A stretch of DNA of 30,889 nt from a virus (IMGVR_UViG_3300003543_000044:1-30889); one strand, 5' to 3'; numbered from the stretch's first letter, positions 2,310-10,933 are shown. Program-made: numbers and translations. The notes: generated by a model not told the origin, from the letters alone.

Positions 2310-4124
2310 TTAATTGTTTTCGTTTGGTATATCATACTTCTTCTCTTCTCCTTCTCCCCAATGTGTTCCCCATTTAATGCCAACTCCTAATGGCGTTTTA
2401 AAATTATAATTATACACCCTATATAAATAATTATAGCATACTTCTGAGAAAGAGTGACATATTAATTCATCAATCTCTTCTCTTTCTTCTTTGGGTGCTT
2501 CTAACTCTACGCTATCATGTACTGTATTAACCATGAATGCTTGTAGCTTTGCATCTTTTATTGCAAGCCATAGATAAGTCATGGCTATAGGTATTATGTC
2601 TGCCGTAGCAAAGCTTTGGACAGGATAGTTGCAGATGCTAGTGCTATCGGTTTGATACCCACTCCTAGTGAACTTAGTGTTAGGGAAGAAGAACTCCATC
2701 CCCCAAGGTAGCACTACAGATTTGTTTCGGTAGGCTTCGTCCAACCATCCCTCTTGCACTTTAGTTATACCGCCATACCTAGCCTTGAATGATTTATAAT
2801 AGGTCTTCTCTGCCTCTGTGCCACTACTACCTCCGTATAGGGGCTTGAACGTGTGCTGCTTAGCATCCTGTCTCTCTGTGTATTGTCCTGCCTCCGTTAA
2901 TGTATCGGCAGTTAGATCGTGTGCATCAAATTTAGGGTCAGCTATATCTATCCTGCCCTGTTCATCGTCACCAAGCTCCACCGCCACACGGAACTCTAGG
3001 TTACTGCCATCTGCCTCACAATATAGCCAATCTTTATGCCTTGTTGTGAATATCCTTTTGAATTCTCTAGCAATATTCTGTAGTTGCATCCTGTACTCTG
3101 TGCCATTAGAAGACAAGCGATGCGTTACAGTTATGTGTTGATTAAATTGAGCATACAATAAATCATCATTATCCACACAAGCTTTAAACTTATTCAGTGC
3201 CTTGGTTAGTTGTGCATTCCTACTACTCTGTTCCACTAGCAGATGTTGTATTTTCTTTTGTATTTTAGTGGTGGCTTTTAGTGCTTTGATTGTATCTATA
3301 TCTGTTACGGGAGCACCGGCAGGGGTACGCACAGGCTTACCATACTTCCTTAACTCTTTGAATTTATATGTTGTATATAATGCTTTCCCTTTTTGCTTAC
3401 CACTCCCCCAGTTGATGTCACTAATCTTACCCAGTTGGTAGCACACATCAGCATACTCTACTTTTGCCTTATTGTATTCTTCGTACACTCTTTCCCTATC
3501 TAGGAATAGCCCGTTAGTTTCTATGTCCGCCAACACTGGTGTTAATATACAACGGGTTAGCACTACCCCCACCTTACCATTAGCTATTGCTTCCTCCCTC
3601 TGCTGTAACATGATTGCTTCTGTTGTGTGTACATCATACTCACATCTACGTTGCAACAATGAGTGGGGGAGTAGGGAAGGGCACACACCCATGTTAATAC
3701 CCACATCAATCACAGGCTCTTTACCTTTAAACCCTCTACGCTTAGCCACTGCGTCTAATGATAAGGCTTTGTTAGCAGGGTTGTTACCAAGCAACACCTT
3801 CTCTGCTAACATTGTATCCCACACCATCACTTTTGATAGGTCTAGCCCTGCCTTAGCTAACCAGCGCAAATCAAACTTGATGTTGTGCCCTACTAATAAT
3901 ACATCTCCTTCTAATGTATTCAATAGTTTATCAGAGAGTGCTAATGTATCACCCCACACAGAAGTGACACCCCCTTGTTCTTTATAACAAGTTAGTATTA
4001 ATTTATTATCTGGATGTAAGCTATCACCAAAGCGTAGGTTGGTGGTTTCTACATCTAATGTTATTGTTGGTAGAGATAGCCACTTCTCTACAGATGGTTG
4101 GTTCATAAAGGCTAGTGCCTCCAT
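2310..4124 (-). CDS. family-A DNA polymerase with 3'-5' exonuclease (T7 gp5-like)
   Basis: Replicative DNA polymerase of 604 residues. The 3'-5' proofreading domain shows Exo I LDVETTN (Asp24, Glu26), Exo II GHNIKFD (Asp85) and Exo III YDVHTTEA (Asp164). The polymerase domain shows motif A DGSNLEFR (Asp372), motif B RQDAKQHTFKPLYG (Arg418, Lys422, Phe426) and motif C VHDSVELE (His536, Asp537). There is no 5'-3' nuclease domain. Phe at the O-helix position that is Tyr in T7 polymerase resembles E. coli PolA and predicts discrimination against dideoxynucleotides. The gene follows a Trp-rich small gene and precedes the OB-fold gene. A minus-strand promoter-like motif lies inside its 3' end (2430-2460). 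Confidence 0.97.
   Translation of the reverse strand: MEALAFMNQPSVEKWLSLPTITLDVETTNLRFGDSLHPDNKLILTCYKEQGGVTSVWGDTLALSDKLLNTLEGDVLLVGHNIKFDLRWLAKAGLDLSKVMVWDTMLAEKVLLGNNPANKALSLDAVAKRRGFKGKEPVIDVGINMGVCPSLLPHSLLQRRCEYDVHTTEAIMLQQREEAIANGKVGVVLTRCILTPVLADIETNGLFLDRERVYEEYNKAKVEYADVCYQLGKISDINWGSGKQKGKALYTTYKFKELRKYGKPVRTPAGAPVTDIDTIKALKATTKIQKKIQHLLVEQSSRNAQLTKALNKFKACVDNDDLLYAQFNQHITVTHRLSSNGTEYRMQLQNIAREFKRIFTTRHKDWLYCEADGSNLEFRVAVELGDDEQGRIDIADPKFDAHDLTADTLTEAGQYTERQDAKQHTFKPLYGGSSGTEAEKTYYKSFKARYGGITKVQEGWLDEAYRNKSVVLPWGMEFFFPNTKFTRSGYQTDSTSICNYPVQSFATADIIPIAMTYLWLAIKDAKLQAFMVNTVHDSVELEAPKEEREEIDELICHSFSEVCYNYLYRVYNYNFKTPLGVGIKWGTHWGEGEEKKYDIPNENN
2430..2460 (-). promoter_or_regulatory. 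promoter-like motif inside the 3' end of the polymerase gene
   Basis: On the minus strand ATGTCA (2460-2455) is followed after 19 bases by TATAAT (2435-2430) with an extended -10 TGC just before it. The core AAGTATGCTATAATTA is identical to the plus-strand motif at 12655-12685 apart from one base. It would drive the OB-fold, ligase and exonuclease genes downstream. The 19-base spacer is longer than usual for sigma-70. Confidence 0.5.
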
Positions 4125-4127
4125 ACA

Positions 4128-4439
4128 CTATCCCCACTCCATACTAAAATTCTTTCGTACAAATCTAACCCATTCATCATCCACCCTACTCCAATTAGTA
4201 GGAAATGTGTGCCCTCCGTACGCTGGGCAGCAATAAGATTTATGTAATAGTACAGACCATGAATTGTTATAGTTAATCTGGTAGTGGTTCAAGTCATCTG
4301 CCCTACCATTATATTGCATATCAGTTAGCCATGCGTCTAGTAAGTCTTTAGATGCCAACCATTGTATAAATACATACCATCCCACTGAAAAGAAAGCACT
4401 CTTATCTTCTCTTCTTAATTGATTTAGTCTACCATCCAC
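4128..4439 (-). CDS. small Trp-rich protein, paralogue A of a three-member phage family
   Basis: Function unknown. The 103-residue product shares an arrangement with the genes at 6007-6312 and 10474-10749: an N-terminal helix ending in a VFIxWLAxKDxLxAW-like segment (here VFIQWLASKDLLDAW), a middle NNSWS element, and a C-terminal NWSRVDDEW motif. This copy is the most divergent, with extra Cys residues in the middle (YCCPAYGG). The ATG overlaps the stop of the HTH gene (ATGGTAG), so translation is probably coupled. It sits between the HTH protein and DNA polymerase genes. Confidence 0.75.
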   Translation of the reverse strand: MDGRLNQLRREDKSAFFSVGWYVFIQWLASKDLLDAWLTDMQYNGRADDLNHYQINYNNSWSVLLHKSYCCPAYGGHTFPTNWSRVDDEWVRFVRKNFSMEWG

Positions 4440-4819: not shown

Positions 4820-6013
4820 TTACCTTTCTTCTACCACTGTTGTTATGTCTTGGTTAATTGTGATAGGGAATACATCGTGATTCCCACTATTCTTATTTTT
4901 TGTAAGTGATAGCATTCTCCTCCCTTGCTGTTCATACTCAGGATTCATTCCTATACCAATCATGACATCCATTTGACCCTGAACCCCAACATTTGTATAG
5001 TGCATGTTATTCTTTTCCAGCACTAGCTTTCCATGTGCATCATTATCTGCTTGGTGTACTATTATACTAACTATCTCATATCTCTTTGCTATCCTACGCA
5101 ATGCAACACTAAGCTCCTCGTTCTTCTCCACCTTAGAAAAGTCACGCATCTCCATGTTAGCCATTTGATCTATGAACATAACGTGCGGGGCACACTTCTC
5201 CACCGCTCTCCTCACTTCCGCCACACTGCCCGGCTGTCCATCCATAAAGAATAGATTGTTATACCCCCCTGCTACCGCTAACTCTTGCGCCCTTGCTGGA
5301 GTGGCTAGTATTTCATGCTTTGTCATGCCAGATAGATTGGAATAGAAGCGTAATAACATCATCTTCTTAGCATCCTCATTACCCAGATAGAGTACACGAT
5401 ACCCATCTTGTAACAACCCACATGCCATGTTGATTGCGAATAATGTCTTACCCACTTCTGTGTTAGCGTATATAGCAACTTGATTTCCCGGCACTAATCC
5501 GCCATCTAATTTATCTGCCAGTATTTGTGGGCGCACTTTGATTATGTTATCAGGAGATATACTATCTATTATATCATCTATCTCTGTCCCATTATCTAAC
5601 ACCATACCGTCATCACTCTCAACATCAGTGATTGTCTTTAGCCTGTCCATTAAGTCTAGTACGACACCTCTATCCTCTCCGTTCAGCAGGCATTCAGCTA
5701 GTCTGTGTTTTATCCCTTGTTCTTTTAGTTGCAGGTATTCTGCCACTGCATTAGGAGGGGATATAGTTTCTTCTGTTGATAGTATTATTTCAAACTGCTC
5801 AAAGTGTCTAGGATAGTCCACCTTTAATGCATCTCTAACAATTTCTACATCTACTTCAGTAGCATCTCCATCTCTCTCGTAGTAGTCTACTATTTTTTCC
5901 CACACCACCCACGCATGACGTGAAAAATCCTCCTCCTCCACTATAGGAGAAAGAGATGAATAAGCCTCCCCACTATGTAGAGCCGCTTGTATTATTCTAT
6001 TCTCTCTTACCAC
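4820..6013 (-). CDS. DnaB-like replicative DNA helicase
   Basis: RecA-fold hexameric helicase of 397 residues that unwinds DNA at the phage fork. Residues 1-110 form a helical N-terminal domain like that of DnaB, where primase binds. The motor domain has Walker A NTEVGKT (Lys189, Thr190; the first Gly is replaced by Ala), Walker B VMFIDQ (Asp282) and a DnaB-type HQ sensor (His320, Gln321). Unlike T7 gp4, primase and helicase are separate genes here. The start appears to be GTG at 6013, eight bases after GGAGGAAG, overlapping the stop of the upstream gene. Confidence 0.9.
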   Translation of the reverse strand: MVRENRIIQAALHSGEAYSSLSPIVEEEDFSRHAWVVWEKIVDYYERDGDATEVDVEIVRDALKVDYPRHFEQFEIILSTEETISPPNAVAEYLQLKEQGIKHRLAECLLNGEDRGVVLDLMDRLKTITDVESDDGMVLDNGTEIDDIIDSISPDNIIKVRPQILADKLDGGLVPGNQVAIYANTEVGKTLFAINMACGLLQDGYRVLYLGNEDAKKMMLLRFYSNLSGMTKHEILATPARAQELAVAGGYNNLFFMDGQPGSVAEVRRAVEKCAPHVMFIDQMANMEMRDFSKVEKNEELSVALRRIAKRYEIVSIIVHQADNDAHGKLVLEKNNMHYTNVGVQGQMDVMIGIGMNPEYEQQGRRMLSLTKNKNSGNHDVFPITINQDITTVVEER

Positions 6014-6312
6014 GGAACTTCCTCCAGTTGGACTCCAACCTCTCTATATCTATTATCTCTTGTTATACGAGTAGCTAATTCCCCCCATTCCCTATCTAAA
6101 TCACGCCAGTAGGTCAGCCCTTCCTCTGTATCCAGCCAAGAAAAACTATAATTTATGATATGGCGGGGATGTCTATCCTTATGAAAACCTTCCTCTCTCC
6201 CCTCTCCCCTCAAATAGAGGTTACTATTATCACACCATGCCCCTAACGCATCCTTGTGAGCGAGCCATCTTATAAATACACTACTCACTATGTTTAATTG
6301 TTCTTGGTTCAT
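6007..6312 (-). CDS. small Trp-rich protein, paralogue B
   Basis: Function unknown, 101 residues, related to the genes at 4128-4439 and 10474-10749. Shared elements are VFIRWLAHKDALGAW near the N-terminus, an aromatic NYSFSW element in the middle, and EEGLTYWRDLDREW near the C-terminus. The ATG at 6312 overlaps the primase stop as ATGA; an earlier GTG at 6321 is less likely. It sits between primase and helicase, so it may bind one of them or merely be a multi-copy accessory gene. Confidence 0.78.
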   Translation of the reverse strand: MNQEQLNIVSSVFIRWLAHKDALGAWCDNSNLYLRGEGREEGFHKDRHPRHIINYSFSWLDTEEGLTYWRDLDREWGELATRITRDNRYREVGVQLEEVPW

Positions 6313-7013
6313 ACTCCCCACCTCTCTGTTAATGTGTTGGCTAAGGCTAACATCCCTGCCACACTATCATCTTTTATATCAACTAATAGGGCATGTACAC
6401 CTATAACAAAACTCTCTTTCCGTGCAAGCTTACAGGCTTTCACTGTTGCGTCCTCATCTAGTCCTATTATACCATGTTTTATACCATTAGCTGTCATGTA
6501 TTCTATCTTACTGCTATTCAAGTTAGTTCCTAACAAGGCTACTGTAGGGAAAAAAGGATTCATCCTATTAGCACTAGATACATCCTCTACTAACAGCACC
6601 ACCTCCCCTGTGTGATGGGAGGGAAAGTGTAATCCGCACCAATCACTATCGAAATTATTAATACTCTTTGGTGTACGCACATACTCCCCTTTGTGGTTTT
6701 TCCTACTCCTGTGCACCCACCCTCTGTGCCCACCATCATTGTCATACACTGCCATCCTACCATACCCCACCATAACTTTATCAACAGCCTTAGTGGTAAC
6801 AGGAGAGGAGGAGGGGGTGTGTTTATTTATGGAGGAGGATGTTGATCCTTGCTCATTGCAAGAGGCACGAAAACAGTACCAACTAACGCCACTATTTTCC
6901 ACTAAAACACTCATTGATTTCTCTTTACTCCTCCCCCCTGTACAGGTGGGGCACATGATACGATGAGAGCCTTTTGGTAGCAGTAATAACTCATTTAATG
7001 TTTGCTTATTCAT
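6309..7013 (-). CDS. DnaG-type primase (zinc ribbon plus TOPRIM)
   Basis: Makes RNA primers for lagging-strand synthesis; 234 residues. The N-terminal zinc ribbon has Cys21, Cys24, Cys47 and Cys52 (CPTC and CFRASC) and would read the template. The TOPRIM catalytic domain shows LLVEDVSSANR with Glu143 and GLDEDAT with Asp186 and Asp188 for metal binding. It matches the primase half of T7 gp4 without the helicase half. The ribosome site GGAGGAGGT is strong. It directly follows the E1-like gene, placing the ubiquitin-like cassette immediately upstream of the replisome genes in the same transcript. Confidence 0.92.
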   Translation of the reverse strand: MNKQTLNELLLLPKGSHRIMCPTCTGGRSKEKSMSVLVENSGVSWYCFRASCNEQGSTSSSINKHTPSSSPVTTKAVDKVMVGYGRMAVYDNDGGHRGWVHRSRKNHKGEYVRTPKSINNFDSDWCGLHFPSHHTGEVVLLVEDVSSANRMNPFFPTVALLGTNLNSSKIEYMTANGIKHGIIGLDEDATVKACKLARKESFVIGVHALLVDIKDDSVAGMLALANTLTERWGV

Positions 7014-7028
7014 ACCTCCTCCATCTTT

Positions 7029-7706
7029 TCATCTACTAACTAACCAAGGGGCTGTATCCATACGGATGTGCTTCTCTTTAAAGCCTGTCTTAAGATAGTT
7101 CATCACACTCCATGAGGCAACTGCGGCGATTGTTTGTGCTGTCACTCCTACAGATAGTGATGAGCCACAACTACTCACCTCATAGGCAGGGTCATCATCA
7201 CTACCACAGGTGGAGTTCCAATAATCCACTTCCTCTGGTTGATCTGGGTTTATTAAATACACATCCCCATGACCAGAAGCCATGCGTGTGTCTACAAATA
7301 AGTCCGCCCATACATCCTGTGTTGCAGTCATTAATAGTTTACGTGCTGAGAATTTATCAACGCAACTAATAATTATATTAGTAGAAACTAATGAGGATGT
7401 GTTCTTTTCATCAATCCTACCATTAACAAAACACATGCTAGGAGGGATTAAGCCAATCTTACTTTCAGCCCAACGTTTAAGAGCAACTACTTTGTATTCT
7501 CCTATATCCTCTTGTACGTAGAGTTGATTTCCTAGGTTGTGATCCTCCACCTTATCAAAATCTATAAAGGTGATGTTCTCTAAGCCTGTGCTTATGAGAT
7601 TCTCTGCCACCCTACTGCCTATAGCCCCAGCACCAACCACAACTAGCTTTAGGTGCTGGTATAGGTGAGAATCAAACACCTCTTGGTGACGTATTGTATT
7701 AATCAT
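7029..7706 (-). CDS. ThiF/E1-like adenylating enzyme of the ubiquitin-like cassette
   Basis: Predicted to adenylate the C-terminal Gly of the small beta-grasp protein encoded at 10161-10388 and start its conjugation. The 225-residue Rossmann protein has the nucleotide loop VVVGAGAIGSR (Gly25-Gly30), acidic TFIDFDKVEDHN with Asp49, Asp51 and Asn57, Lys72 after DIGEY, and CVD with Asp117 (the ThiF/MoeB metal-proximal Asp). Candidate thioester cysteines are Cys167 and Cys180; the latter precedes GSSLSVGVTAQTIAAVAS, which aligns with the post-cysteine helix of ThiF. CxxC zinc pairs of MoeB are missing, as in many short PRTRC-type ThiF proteins. Its ATG overlaps the stop of the E2-like gene by eight bases. 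Confidence 0.92.
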   Translation of the reverse strand: MINTIRHQEVFDSHLYQHLKLVVVGAGAIGSRVAENLISTGLENITFIDFDKVEDHNLGNQLYVQEDIGEYKVVALKRWAESKIGLIPPSMCFVNGRIDEKNTSSLVSTNIIISCVDKFSARKLLMTATQDVWADLFVDTRMASGHGDVYLINPDQPEEVDYWNSTCGSDDDPAYEVSSCGSSLSVGVTAQTIAAVASWSVMNYLKTGFKEKHIRMDTAPWLVSR

Positions 7707-8529
7707 CTTTCCCTTCCTTCTCTTCGCTGAATAGCATGATGAATTTAGTTAATAGCTCACGACTGCTGGCACTAATTCTCCCTCCTGTCCCTTCTCTCCT
7801 AGCCATATTAAATGGAGGGGTGTCATCTTCGTATATTATTTTAGCCATCCGTAGTTGATCTTCTCGGTCAATGCTCACACCTCTACTATTAATACTCGCA
7901 TTGGATGTAAACTCCTCATAACTATATCCGTATTCATCTTTAGCATTAGTCCCTGTTCTAATGTAGTCACTAAACTTCATCAGGAATAAAGATAAATCAC
8001 TTAAAGCTATTGCATCGTATAGTCCATTAGAATAATGCCCGTCACAATGACCAACAGCGAAGTGTGCCCCACCATTGCTACCGGAATGAGGAATCACCCT
8101 CCCATCAATAGCAAAGGAAGAGTATAATAAGTTATACACCCTCAGCCCACTTATTTTATTTACATTAACACAAAAATACACAGGGGGTTGATAGTAGTCA
8201 TCGTAATAATCACCATCTCCATCGAATGCCTGTGCCTCGCATTCATCGTGTCGAAAATAGATGTACATGCTATCATCTGTTTCTTCATGCAAAACATAAG
8301 ACACCATCCCCATCCTGTCAGGAAAAGACACTGTTATTGGGGGTGGAGGGGTGTCCCCTCTTCGCAATGTTTCTTTGTAGTCTTTTAGCTCTGCTTCTAA
8401 TTCCAACTTCCCGTGTGTTACTAACGTAGTTAGGGTGCTGGGTTGTAGTGTGTAAGAATTAGACATCCTTTCTCGTAATTGCCTAAGGGATGGCAGTATT
8501 GGTATATAACTCACAGAGTGATTAGTCAT
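7699..8529 (-). CDS. candidate E2-like protein of the ubiquitin-like cassette
   Basis: Provisional call. The 276-residue protein lies between JAB and E1 genes, the place of protein B (E2-like, Prok-E2_D type) in PRTRC cassettes. The core resembles that family: a strand PPVYFCVNVN (about 115-124), LYSSFAIDGRVIPHSG (about 135-150), then HFAVGHCDGHY with Cys162, and a C-terminal helix SDLSLFLMKFSDY. Cys162 after the DGRV strand is the best active-site candidate; Cys97 and Cys120 are alternatives. The N-terminus has a Pro-rich PPPPI stretch and the middle an Asp/Tyr-rich patch (YYDDYY). ATG overlap with the preceding stop and GAGGACTACCA upstream support the start. It could also be an unrelated scaffold. 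Confidence 0.55.
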   Translation of the reverse strand: MTNHSVSYIPILPSLRQLRERMSNSYTLQPSTLTTLVTHGKLELEAELKDYKETLRRGDTPPPPITVSFPDRMGMVSYVLHEETDDSMYIYFRHDECEAQAFDGDGDYYDDYYQPPVYFCVNVNKISGLRVYNLLYSSFAIDGRVIPHSGSNGGAHFAVGHCDGHYSNGLYDAIALSDLSLFLMKFSDYIRTGTNAKDEYGYSYEEFTSNASINSRGVSIDREDQLRMAKIIYEDDTPPFNMARREGTGGRISASSRELLTKFIMLFSEEKEGKDD

Positions 8530-8707
8530 TGGTAGTCCTCATAAACACTGGTGTTATAGGAGTAGAGGTTGATCTCTTTGCTGCGATGTGGTCGGTTATA
8601 GGTGAAGCCCATTTTCCACTATATACAAAAGCCAACCCACTGCCGTAATCTTCAATAAACTCACAGCATATTTCCTCTGCTAAATCAACTAGTTGCGGTG
8701 TCATCAT
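8522..8707 (-). CDS. hypothetical 61-aa protein inside the ubiquitin-like cassette
   Basis: Not recognised. GGAGG (8718-8714) followed by four ATG codons in a row fixes the start near 8707 or 8704; a longer reading frame back to 8797 is just the shadow of the upstream gene. The protein begins MMTPQLVDLAEEICCEF, has a Cys-Cys pair, and continues with a short Gly/Tyr segment and a Ser/Thr-rich tail. The start overlaps the poly-Asp end of the upstream gene, and the stop overlaps the start of the E2-like gene by eight bases, so all three are probably co-translated. It may be a partner or substrate of the cassette. Confidence 0.6.
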   Translation of the reverse strand: MMTPQLVDLAEEICCEFIEDYGSGLAFVYSGKWASPITDHIAAKRSTSTPITPVFMRTTND

Positions 8708-9254
8708 CATCATCCTCCTTTTTATCATCATCGCTTGCTTCCGCAATGGAGGCATCATACTCCTCCTTAGTTGTGATGTTTGTCTCCACGTCATCAAAGA
8801 TGATGTCAGAAACAGCGATCACACTATTAATTAAATCAGTGCGGATGTTAATCAGCCCTACTATAGATGGATTATCTTCCATTAACATAGTAGTCATAGA
8901 TATGTAGTGTCTAGCCACAGCAGGGTCTGCCTCTATCTGCTTACGTATTGCATCGAAATCTATATTAGCCGTCCCAGAACTATCCCCAACACCCACTTCC
9001 CAATTAGAAGTATCTACGTTTATTGTGATACTAAGATGAGAGTTAGTTCTTTGCAAAGCTCCCATTACCCCACTATGCCATAAAGGGTGCTCCTCCTCTA
9101 ATTCTTCAACTATAGCTAAAGCTAATAGCATGTTTACATTATGATCCATAGATATAGCAGGGATGATGTTCTCATACCCTCTATCCCCTAGCAATGATTG
9201 CCATTTATCTACAATCCCCTGCATATCTTCTATGTATTCTTTTATAATATTCAT
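8685..9254 (-). CDS. hypothetical acidic protein inside the ubiquitin-like cassette, 189 aa
   Basis: Not recognised. The ATG overlaps the stop of the JAB gene as ATGA. The N-terminal half is helical (IKEYIEDMQGIVDKW; LLALAIVEELEEE), followed by a likely strand region (SHLSITINVDTSNWEV), another helical region, and a disordered tail of Lys, Glu and a run of Asp (about residues 172-189). There is no membrane segment or catalytic motif. Its position between protease and E2-like genes, where PRTRC cassettes have other partners, suggests a dedicated adaptor or target, but no sequence motif shows it. Confidence 0.7.
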   Translation of the reverse strand: MNIIKEYIEDMQGIVDKWQSLLGDRGYENIIPAISMDHNVNMLLALAIVEELEEEHPLWHSGVMGALQRTNSHLSITINVDTSNWEVGVGDSSGTANIDFDAIRKQIEADPAVARHYISMTTMLMEDNPSIVGLINIRTDLINSVIAVSDIIFDDVETNITTKEEYDASIAEASDDDKKEDDDDDTATS

Positions 9255-10081
9255 ACAATTCTCCCCATTGCTGTTACTGTTTCTAAAGATGTGCCGTCAT
9301 TAAACGCATCCCATTGATCTTCATCCCAAGCATCTCTGCTGTACACAGGGTCTAAATCCCAAGGGGTTAGTACGTCATCCACTTGTGATGTCATTGGCAC
9401 AGCCGATGTTTGGTTTGTGCATTTATTACCTTTCCATTTCTGTAGGGATGACAGTGGAGGAGGGGCACGTCTAACTCTAGCTAGTTGCATATCCAAATCC
9501 TCAATATCTTCTTCCGTAAGTACCCCTTCCACTTCAACGGGGCAATCTGCATAATATCTTCCATTCTCCCAATCCCACACAGAAGCAAATACATCGCCAT
9601 CTTTATTGTGCACTGTCTGCACATTCCATTTGACGTTCAATTCACCATCGGAATTTCTTACAGGATTTCCATCAGCATCGAAGTCCTGAAGCCGTAGCAT
9701 TTCTTGCTCATCTGTAGGAGAGGAATATACATTCATATCCACATGGCTATGACCCAACCCTGCATCCACAACGCCGGGATATAATTCCTTTCGTTGCAAT
9801 AACTCTAGCGTAGCCACTGCTCTTTCTTCCATAGTGTGTGTCCACGTAGCTGGTTCACCCACCTGAGGCATAGCCCTAGCATCAACAACACGATAGAGGA
9901 AGTCGTGTACTTTTTCCACAACTTCAATCCACCCCACTTCGTTTGGGGAATTAAAAACTAAATGCCCAACTTTTTCCCACGCACGGCGAGTGTAGTTAAT
10001 AGTTGGTTTGTCTGCATTAAATAAATAATTAGTGCGTGTTGCACTCTTTTTCTTATCACTCTTTTTACTTTTATTGCTCAT
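9251..10081 (-). CDS. JAB/JAMM-family metalloprotease (deubiquitinase-like)
   Basis: Predicted zinc isopeptidase or processing protease for the cassette's ubiquitin-like protein. The JAMM signature is complete: Glu48 in SPNEVGWIEVV, then HSHVDMNVYSSPTDE with His111, His113, Ser121 and Asp124, an exact HxH-x7-S-x2-D. The domain covers about residues 30-150; a Lys/Ser-rich N-terminus precedes it and about 120 residues follow, including VFASVWDWENGRYY, possibly a second module. The start at 10081 follows GAGGTTAAAGGTA; longer readings to 10135 lack a better site. In PRTRC and Bil-type systems the JAB protein trims the Ubl tail and removes conjugates; the terminal Ala after GGG here could be its substrate. 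Confidence 0.9.
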   Translation of the reverse strand: MSNKSKKSDKKKSATRTNYLFNADKPTINYTRRAWEKVGHLVFNSPNEVGWIEVVEKVHDFLYRVVDARAMPQVGEPATWTHTMEERAVATLELLQRKELYPGVVDAGLGHSHVDMNVYSSPTDEQEMLRLQDFDADGNPVRNSDGELNVKWNVQTVHNKDGDVFASVWDWENGRYYADCPVEVEGVLTEEDIEDLDMQLARVRRAPPPLSSLQKWKGNKCTNQTSAVPMTSQVDDVLTPWDLDPVYSRDAWDEDQWDAFNDGTSLETVTAMGRIV

Positions 10082-10160
10082 TACCTTTAACCTCACAGAA
10101 TAAAATAAAGGCATTAACATGGCTTCTACGTCCATTTAGTTAATGCTTTAGCGCACCTCT

Positions 10161-10388
10161 CTACGCACCACCGCCCGGCTTTGTCACTGTGACAATATCA
10201 CCAGCGTTAATAGCATCTCCCAGCATCATGGCTACGCCATTTGCGTTCACAGGAGTGTCTTCCGAAATACCCTTCTCACGAAGAATATCACCGACAGTAG
10301 GGTAGGTGGTTACATCAGGTGTCTCAACACCAGCGCCTTGAATTGACAGAGTGAATGCACCGTTACCAGTAATTACAGTTTGTGACAT
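10161..10388 (-). CDS. ubiquitin-like beta-grasp modifier (ThiS/MoaD type) ending in GGGA
   Basis: Small protein predicted to be conjugated to targets or used as a sulfur-carrier-like modifier. It is 75 residues with the beta-grasp order: strands at AFTLSIQGAG and VTTYP, the helix TVGDILREKG (31-40), NANGVAMML, then AGDIVTVTKPGGGA. The DGD-type turn plus hydrophobic strand before the Gly tail is typical of ThiS/MoaD and bacterial Ubl proteins. Gly72-74 followed by Ala75 implies one-residue processing to expose Gly. The start at 10388 has GAGGATAATAAT upstream, the common ribosome-site form in this phage; a longer reading to 10430 does not. It is the first gene of the cassette and has an unusual structured leader. 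Confidence 0.88.
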   Translation of the reverse strand: MSQTVITGNGAFTLSIQGAGVETPDVTTYPTVGDILREKGISEDTPVNANGVAMMLGDAINAGDIVTVTKPGGGA

Positions 10389-10473: not shown

Positions 10474-10749
10474 CTAATTAAGCCTTAATCTCAACTTATT
10501 GTATAAACCATGCCACTTATCATCAAGTGTACTCCAATATTCAACTCCTTCCTTTGTTCCACCCCAACTAAATCCTTCTTGTAAAAACGTATATTTATCT
10601 AAAGTAAACTCGCCTGTCATATCTCGCATAATACAATAAATAGGGTAGGCACAATATTCTTGGTATGATTCTAATGCTTCGTTTTTTGTTAAGAACTCAA
10701 TAAAAACATACAAAATAATTACATTCTTATCTGCTTGCGACAATTCCAT
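10474..10749 (-). CDS. small Trp-rich protein, paralogue C
   Basis: Function unknown, 91 residues, third member of the family at 4128-4439 and 6007-6312. It has YVFIEFLTKNEALESY near the N-terminus, EGFSWGGTKEGVEYW in the middle and STLDDKW near the end. The ATG at 10749 follows AGGAGGAGGGGAGTG and overlaps the end of the Cys-rich gene. It directly precedes the ubiquitin-like cassette. Confidence 0.75.
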   Translation of the reverse strand: MELSQADKNVIILYVFIEFLTKNEALESYQEYCAYPIYCIMRDMTGEFTLDKYTFLQEGFSWGGTKEGVEYWSTLDDKWHGLYNKLRLRLN

Positions 10750-10933
10750 CACTCCCCTCCTCCTTTATGTATTTAGTGTAGCAATCTGGGGGAGAAACAA
10801 ACAGCATGATTGGAGGATTATCCATCCATTCACAAGCCGCTGTGTGCACATCTTTTGTGTATGCTCTGTGACAATTATCCCAATCAGAACAATCACTTGC
10901 ATCACAAAACGTCATATCTCTAAAGCATAACAT
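10727..10933 (-). CDS. Cys-rich small protein, possible zinc binder, 68 aa
   Basis: Function unknown. Five Cys residues fall in the first 34 positions (CFRDMTFCDASDCSDWDNC, then ACEW) and one more in SPPDCYTKY, a pattern consistent with a small metal-binding fold seen in many phage early proteins of unknown role. The ATG overlaps the upstream stop as TAATG and the 3' end overlaps the Trp-rich gene, so it is part of one coupled transcript. Confidence 0.75.
   Translation of the reverse strand: MLCFRDMTFCDASDCSDWDNCHRAYTKDVHTAACEWMDNPPIMLFVSPPDCYTKYIKEEGSDGIVASR

Follow-up and report, generated by a model that had tools for sequence, protein, structure and literature searches.

The record examined here is a viral sequence from IMG/VR (IMGVR_UViG_3300003543_000044; 30,889 bp, possibly a fragment), referred to below as the window. 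Six genes on its minus strand, at 7029–10388, encode, in order of transcription, a ubiquitin-like (Ubl) protein, a JAB/JAMM metalloprotease, two uncharacterised proteins (u1 and u2), an E2-like protein and a ThiF/E1-like adenylating enzyme; their extent and strand are as given in an initial annotation of the sequence. The best explanation of this cassette, judged from sequence comparison and structure models, is probably a phage-encoded and likely reversible Ubl-conjugation pathway situated in the replication module. Profile, motif and shuffle evidence supports the earlier proposal that a phage carries its own Ubl, JAB, E2 and E1 genes. Within Pfam, PHROGs and NCBIfam, ThiF is the only cassette product recognised. 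The phage collection that was searched holds no near match to the 30,889-bp record, and one viral contig (L001; L numbers denote loci on viral contigs) is its near-identical twin, with the same proteins at 100%.

The E1 and JAB assignments are firm as sequence assignments. Profiles built without the window's proteins recover the E1 at E=7e-61 and the JAB at E=6.5e-27, the latter with a profile of 107 phage JABs. The E1 matches Pfam ThiF (PF00899, 4.5e-25), and its best solved relatives include UBA5 (1.4e-7) and MoeB (1.8e-7). By alignment, its ATP-site residues and the predicted catalytic cysteine are all present: G25, G27, D49, D51, N57, K72 and D117 never vary in the 103 phage E1s compared, all taken from cassette loci, and 102 of these retain C180. 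The position of MoeB Arg73, a residue named in PMC12355090, corresponds to N60 in an alignment read by eye, and phage E1s mostly carry Asn there, with Arg outside the five commonest residues. In an E1 tree, L110, L120 and the L019/L131 group are placed close to the window's protein; a pairing with LR756511, resting on a very long branch (4.86), was disregarded. The JAMM motif of the metalloprotease reads E66 ... H129-S-H131-x7-S139-x2-D142, in agreement with the HSH-x7-S-x2-D noted beforehand, and across 105 JABs the residues H129, H131, S139 and D142 hardly vary. A JAB family alignment containing the window's JAB matches Rpn11 at 6.8e-8 (the three PDB profile searches with family alignments, those of JAB and Ubl among them, include the window's protein as one row and speak mostly for the family), and the PADLOC JAB model matches the protein itself at 3.2e-4. 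Single-sequence searches with this JAB gave no match in the phage collection and only the twin among viral contigs, and neither an NCBIfam match at E<=1 nor an NlpC match was obtained.

The E2-like protein has both features picked out in the initial annotation, a DGRV strand and a GHC motif (C162). A phage E2 profile of 111 sequences, iterated without the window's protein, recovers it with E=0.0042 in a set of 9,812 open reading frames (ORFs). It ranks directly behind the true members and only slightly above noise; in the next rows, at 0.0066 and 0.008, the match does not cover the Cys region. Scored as a single protein it has p of about 4e-7, with 0 of 2,573 shuffles as good and no score at all for the neighbouring u1. 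C162 and G164 align to an invariant C-x-G, whose Cys is present in all 111 phage E2-like proteins. The motif of relatives is often HPHxxxxGxxClGN, near the canonical E2 HPN...C, and that of L033 is HPNVTLNGHVCFGS; the 276-amino-acid (aa) protein has H165 and H148, and relatives have HPH or HSH before the Cys, with no downstream His among the reported invariant columns. Its AlphaFold2 model is of low confidence (predicted local distance difference test score, pLDDT, 56; predicted template modelling score, pTM, 0.57), yet Foldseek ranks Cdc34 and further E2s highest for this model, and in a second structural comparison the top 18 matches are without exception E2s (Z up to 5.5), among them UFC1, UBE2O, Ubc6, UBE2Z and UBE2J2. 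This structural match is not fully independent, because the input alignment of the model contained relatives. The E2 core of L122 gives a confident model (pLDDT 88.8, pTM 0.84) that resembles mainly RWD, UEV, E2 and Cap2-E2 folds (Z 3.5–5.5). Foldseek E-values are not significant for either model, and only the coherence of the matches counts. Each of these tests is modest; taken jointly, they indicate a fold of the UBC/RWD type that bears an E2-type cysteine. As far as profile searches can tell, the phage E2s fall outside the E2 families of Pfam and NCBIfam; the 276-aa protein matches nothing in Pfam, PHROGs or NCBIfam, and as a single sequence it finds nothing in the phage collection at E<=10 and only the twin among viral contigs. 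Some E2-like proteins elsewhere (L002:13745-15745, L005:5310-7988 and L174:3207-4232) have Cys-rich, zinc-finger-like C-terminal parts, which are possibly built-in E3-type domains.

The beta-grasp assignment of the 75-aa protein is good but indirect, by remote homology, and the expected GGGA end is present (KPGGGA). Pfam G5-linked-Ubl matches it at 0.012, below the cut-off. With the first-iteration Ubl profile 0 of 4,919 shuffles score as high, and with the third 2 of 4,941; phmmer connects the protein to the second-cassette Ubl of L028 (E=0.0011). The best solved matches of a family alignment that contains it are SAMP2 (1.8e-5), PF1061, RnfH, MoaD and ThiS, and phage Ubl relatives match the Pfam ThiS, Ub-Mut7C, SAMP2 and RnfH models. 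An hhalign match between the family alignment and the 75-aa Ubl was discounted, because the protein is itself in the aligned set, and BLASTP against the L019 cassette gave nothing useful. In related Ubls the C-terminal Gly is often followed by 1–3 residues. Their termini include KGN, GGK, GGR, GGVY and GA, and NA in a sizeable group. Some are tandem: L026 has two tandem units divided at IKGNQ, and the tandem or over-long genes at L026:6675-7088, L135:2264-2896 and L157:7465-7896 resemble polyubiquitin precursors. Overall, as sequence assignments, those of Ubl and E2 are less secure than those of E1 and JAB, yet both beat shuffled controls.

The cassette belongs to a broad phage class and is not peculiar to one phage. 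E1 and JAB scans of viral contigs gathered 160 loci, and related cassettes occur in more than 100 other phage sequences. Co-occurrence in other phages, on which the initial annotation had made its reading depend, was found: E1, JAB, E2 and Ubl stand together, within the fetched flanks, in 63 of the 70 distinct JAB-found loci, a figure that is partly circular for the Ubl, whose training set was restricted to cassette loci. A search with the E2 profile, which was not confined to cassette loci, placed 137 of 165 matches (E<1) no more than 1.5 kb from a JAB gene. By comparison, a survey of 291 bacterial genomes of one class found the phage-type E2 in only 5. The gene orders seen include Ubl-E2-JAB-E1 (45), Ubl-E1-JAB-E2 (10) and E2-JAB-E1-Ubl (10).

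Cultured phages carry the module too, crAss-like gut phages among them. In crAss001, gp78 is the E2, gp77 the JAB and gp76 the ThiF, with gp79 Ubl-like by eye; in this phage, DAC15 and other Steigviridae, E2, JAB and ThiF lie between primase and uracil-DNA glycosylase (UDG), under annotations such as hypothetical, metalloprotease or thiamine biosynthesis. Across the Steigviridae records examined (crAss001 as L009, gp76–gp79, and L010–L016) the module is conserved. It is also present, under annotations of the same kinds, in Flavobacterium phage FpV4 (Fipvunavirus) and in Xanthomonas phage PhiXhv-15, although no JAB was found in the latter. The Ubl-like genes of the cultured phages were assigned by eye, the Ubl profile making no call. 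In nearer kin of the window (L019, L131, L178 and L110) the module stands beside a DNA polymerase or helicase gene.

Several variants were observed among these loci. In a gut-type clade with the order Ubl-E2-JAB-E1, the E1 gene is closely followed by one that resembles a reverse transcriptase and has YADD (phrog_1423/2825); this gene occurs in 43 loci (for example L122:7603-8724, L029:7785-8912 and L097:7024-8190). Large phage contigs (L002, L021, L022, L025 and L028) carry two adjoining Ubl/E2 blocks; in L002 an SbcC/Rad50-like ATPase, recognised by eye, stands between them. Another phage class, comprising many of L036–L096, has ThiF with a short JAB bearing the motif HTHPFGxAYFSGTD, and no E2 or Ubl was recognised in it.

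Table 1. Cassette genes and neighbouring replication genes in the window
Feature	Coordinates	Strand	Remarks
Ubl, beta-grasp modifier-like, 75 aa	10161..10388	-	C-terminus KPGGGA, a Gly run followed by one residue
JAB/JAMM metalloprotease	9251..10135	-	likely start ATG 10081; E66, HSH 129-131, S139, D142
u1, 189 aa, acidic tail	8685..9254	-	no relatives found
u2, about 62 aa	about 8522..8713	-	start in a run of ATGs after AAGGAGG; no convincing relative
E2-like, 276 aa	7699..8529	-	predicted catalytic C162 in GHC-D-G-H; HPN-type region divergent
ThiF/E1-like adenylating enzyme, 225 aa	7029..7706	-	GxGxxG, D49, N57, Q61, K72, D117; predicted catalytic C180
DNA primase homologue (next gene)	6309..7013	-	phrog_47 3.4e-7
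DnaB-like helicase (context)	4820..6013	-	phrog_19 2.6e-47
DNA polymerase (context)	2310..4124	-	phrog_17 1.8e-71

The arrangement of the window agrees with placement of the cassette inside a replication operon. Primase, helicase and DNA polymerase genes follow on the same strand, the primase start lying 15 nt past the E1 stop; the cassette is directly upstream of the primase and co-directional with it. The minus strand encodes an exonuclease, an RNA ligase, the DNA polymerase, the DnaB-type helicase and the primase, and the plus strand carries the terminase, portal and head genes. Overlaps between consecutive genes, proposed for the cassette as a whole, hold for JAB/u1, u1/u2, u2/E2 and E2/E1; Ubl and JAB are instead separated by a short gap. 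For the JAB, the ATG at 10081 is the better-placed start, with GAGG/AAAGG upstream. Library scans and phmmer against the cassette loci found no relative of u1. The RNA-ligase-like gene lies at 1003–1536 in the same operon (phrog_548, 1.9e-25). Three small related proteins (about 92–104 aa; mutual phmmer 1.7e-7 to 0.09) are spread across the operon at 4128–4439, 6007–6321 and 10474–10752, one of them adjoining the Ubl gene, and no relatives of these were found among the fetched loci except in the twin contig.

Our results suggest a mechanism in which each biochemical step is proposed from the homologies, the conserved catalytic residues, the operon structure and the repeated co-occurrence described above. 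The JAB would trim the residue(s) that follow the C-terminal glycines of the Ubl (GGG|A), and the ThiF/E1 would adenylate the Ubl with ATP and load it onto C180. From there the Ubl may move on to C162 of the E2-like protein, which, with or without u1 and u2 as partners, would attach it to target proteins; the JAB could then take the Ubl off again. The likeliest use of such a pathway, put forward as no more than a guess, is to modify proteins of the phage or its host during takeover or while phage DNA is being replicated, because the cassette lies in the replication module in the window and in its relatives. Replication or host-takeover proteins are likewise favoured over virion proteins as targets, since the replication-module position is common to distant phages.

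Several observations weigh against this conjugation pathway. The Ubl profile finds the 75-aa protein only at E=0.14 among the 9,812 ORFs. The 276-aa protein is divergent: it has no significant pairwise match to its relatives (phmmer, and BLASTP against the L019 cassette), its hhalign result is weak and its own model reaches a pLDDT of just 56 despite relatives in the alignment; the Z-scores of the E2 structure matches are low and do not exceed 5.5. None of the other loci showed the order Ubl-JAB-u1-u2-E2-E1. In many related Ubls the final residues are NA and not Gly, and therefore the C-terminal chemistry may differ.

The main rival, which we consider unlikely, is that the phage pathway, or the JAB alone, undoes or outcompetes a host Bil system or a type II cyclic-oligonucleotide-based anti-phage signalling system (CBASS). 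Related bacterial enzymes do act against phages (PMC10097602), and a JAB could remove host Ubl from phage proteins; however, a full activating and conjugating set exceeds what removal needs, the genes lie with replication genes and not in an accessory region, and conservation across the Steigviridae records examined suggests a core role. It is rather improbable that the cassette is instead captured cargo of the PRTRC or Iyer 6d kind, used for defence or superinfection exclusion against other phages. A small Ubl with C-terminal Gly, a JAB, an E2-like protein and an E1 are shared with Iyer operon type 6d (PMC1779556), whereas the lack of any PRTRC A, B or ParB match, a ThiF score far below the family cut-off, and recurrence in phages set against the 5 of 291 bacterial genomes all argue the other way.

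The Ubl could also be a ThiS/MoaD-like sulfur carrier, trimmed by the JAB and thiocarboxylated by ThiF for a modified nucleotide, tRNA or cofactor. MoaD and ThiS are among the solved relatives of the Ubl profile, MoeB is among those of the E1, and the cassette sits among nucleotide-handling genes. Such a system has no need of the UBC-like protein with an invariant Cys that accompanies E1, JAB and Ubl in most loci, and the record proteins examined, a non-exhaustive set, included no recognisable ThiG, MoaE or tRNA-thiolation protein; we regard this explanation as quite improbable.

In the known picture, bacterial Ubl tagging is an anti-phage weapon and a feature of scattered bacterial operons. 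That picture would be reversed if phages run a complete pathway of their own during replication. Quite possibly, Ubl conjugation is a widespread, core and replication-linked function of tailed phages (crAss-like, Flavobacterium, Xanthomonas and many uncultured ones), with a phage UBC-fold E2 family new to Pfam and NCBIfam; the cassette in the window would then be a divergent example, set apart by its gene order and by two additional proteins. A phage-run pathway would also make crAss001, DAC15, FpV4 and PhiXhv-15 cultured systems in which to hunt for targets, and would contribute a family of phage E2s, along with Ubl precursors that have a short tail after the Gly and are tandem in some cases, relevant to how eukaryotic ubiquitin signalling arose.

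The cassette had been likened to PRTRC systems, which we take to be the type 6d operons discussed below. That family link did not hold. No match was found to PRTRC_A (TIGR03735) for the window's JAB at E<=1, one relative's JAB alone matching that model (0.008), or to PRTRC_B (TIGR03737) at E<=10 in the window or in 30 phage E2 relatives, and the E1 scores 48.3 bits against PRTRC_ThiF (TIGR03736), whose cut-off is 144.75. Membership in PRTRC was rejected on these grounds. The absence of a ParB-related gene, also predicted, is borne out by 0 matches to PRTRC_parB (TIGR03734) or ParB_N in the 30.9-kb record, possibly a fragment. The PRTRC order given beforehand (Ubl-like C, JAB, E2-like, ThiF) differs from that of the phage cassette. 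Plasmid searches returned distant ThiFs only for the E1 and nothing for the crAss001 E2, and thus yielded no PRTRC proteins to compare directly.

Bacterial Ubl/JAB/E2/E1 operons were predicted in 2006 by Iyer, Burroughs and Aravind, and their type 6d comprises a small C-terminal-Gly Ubl, a JAB, a conserved and mainly helical partner protein, an E2-like protein whose upstream His is missing and which has a conserved His after the Cys, and an E1 (PMC1779556). In common with it, the phage cassette encodes together a C-terminal-Gly Ubl, a JAB, an extra uncharacterised protein, an E2-like and an E1-like protein, with Ubl and E2 assigned by remote homology. It differs in lying in a phage replication module without a ParB-related gene, and its E2 family is recognised by neither PRTRC_B nor Prok-E2 models. 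Immune counterparts are known from bacteria (PMC10097602, PMC13373217), and bacterial immune or stress operons likewise have Ubl, E1, E2 and JAB parts (PMC13373217), whereas the phage cassette is part of a replication module. For BilA–D, PADLOC 2023 gave only general E1-E2 and JAB matches, and cassette products other than E1 and JAB matched no PADLOC model. Type II CBASS Cap2/Cap3 shares E1 and JAB homology, and the L122 E2 fold resembles the Cap2 E2 domain; in the phage, however, the E1 is a stand-alone protein of 225 aa and the E2 a separate gene. With no Cap2-type E1-E2 fusion and no CD-NTase among the cassette genes, assignment to type II CBASS was rejected.

Archaeal SAMP/JAMM1 and ThiS/MoaD systems resemble the cassette in that the Ubl profile best matches SAMP2 and PF1061; to our knowledge they have no dedicated E2. 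The lambda-type tail proteins TAPI/TAPK also pair a phage Ubl with a JAB, but in a tail cluster without E1 or E2 and with the JAB joined to NlpC, and this tail-assembly pair is the sole phage case in the accessible text of PMC1779556. The replication-operon setting and the lack of an NlpC match in the JAB led us to set TAPI/TAPK aside. No description of a phage E1/E2/JAB/Ubl cassette was found in the full text of the open-access (CC-licensed PMC) papers searched. The modules of crAss-like Steigviridae, FpV4 and PhiXhv-15 have an E2 of the same profile family together with ThiF and, apart from PhiXhv-15, a JAB. Their E2s are larger and carry HSH or HPH before the Cys, and in Steigviridae the Ubl-like domain, by eye, is the N-terminus of a longer protein; like the cassette in the window, these modules lie between or beside replication genes.

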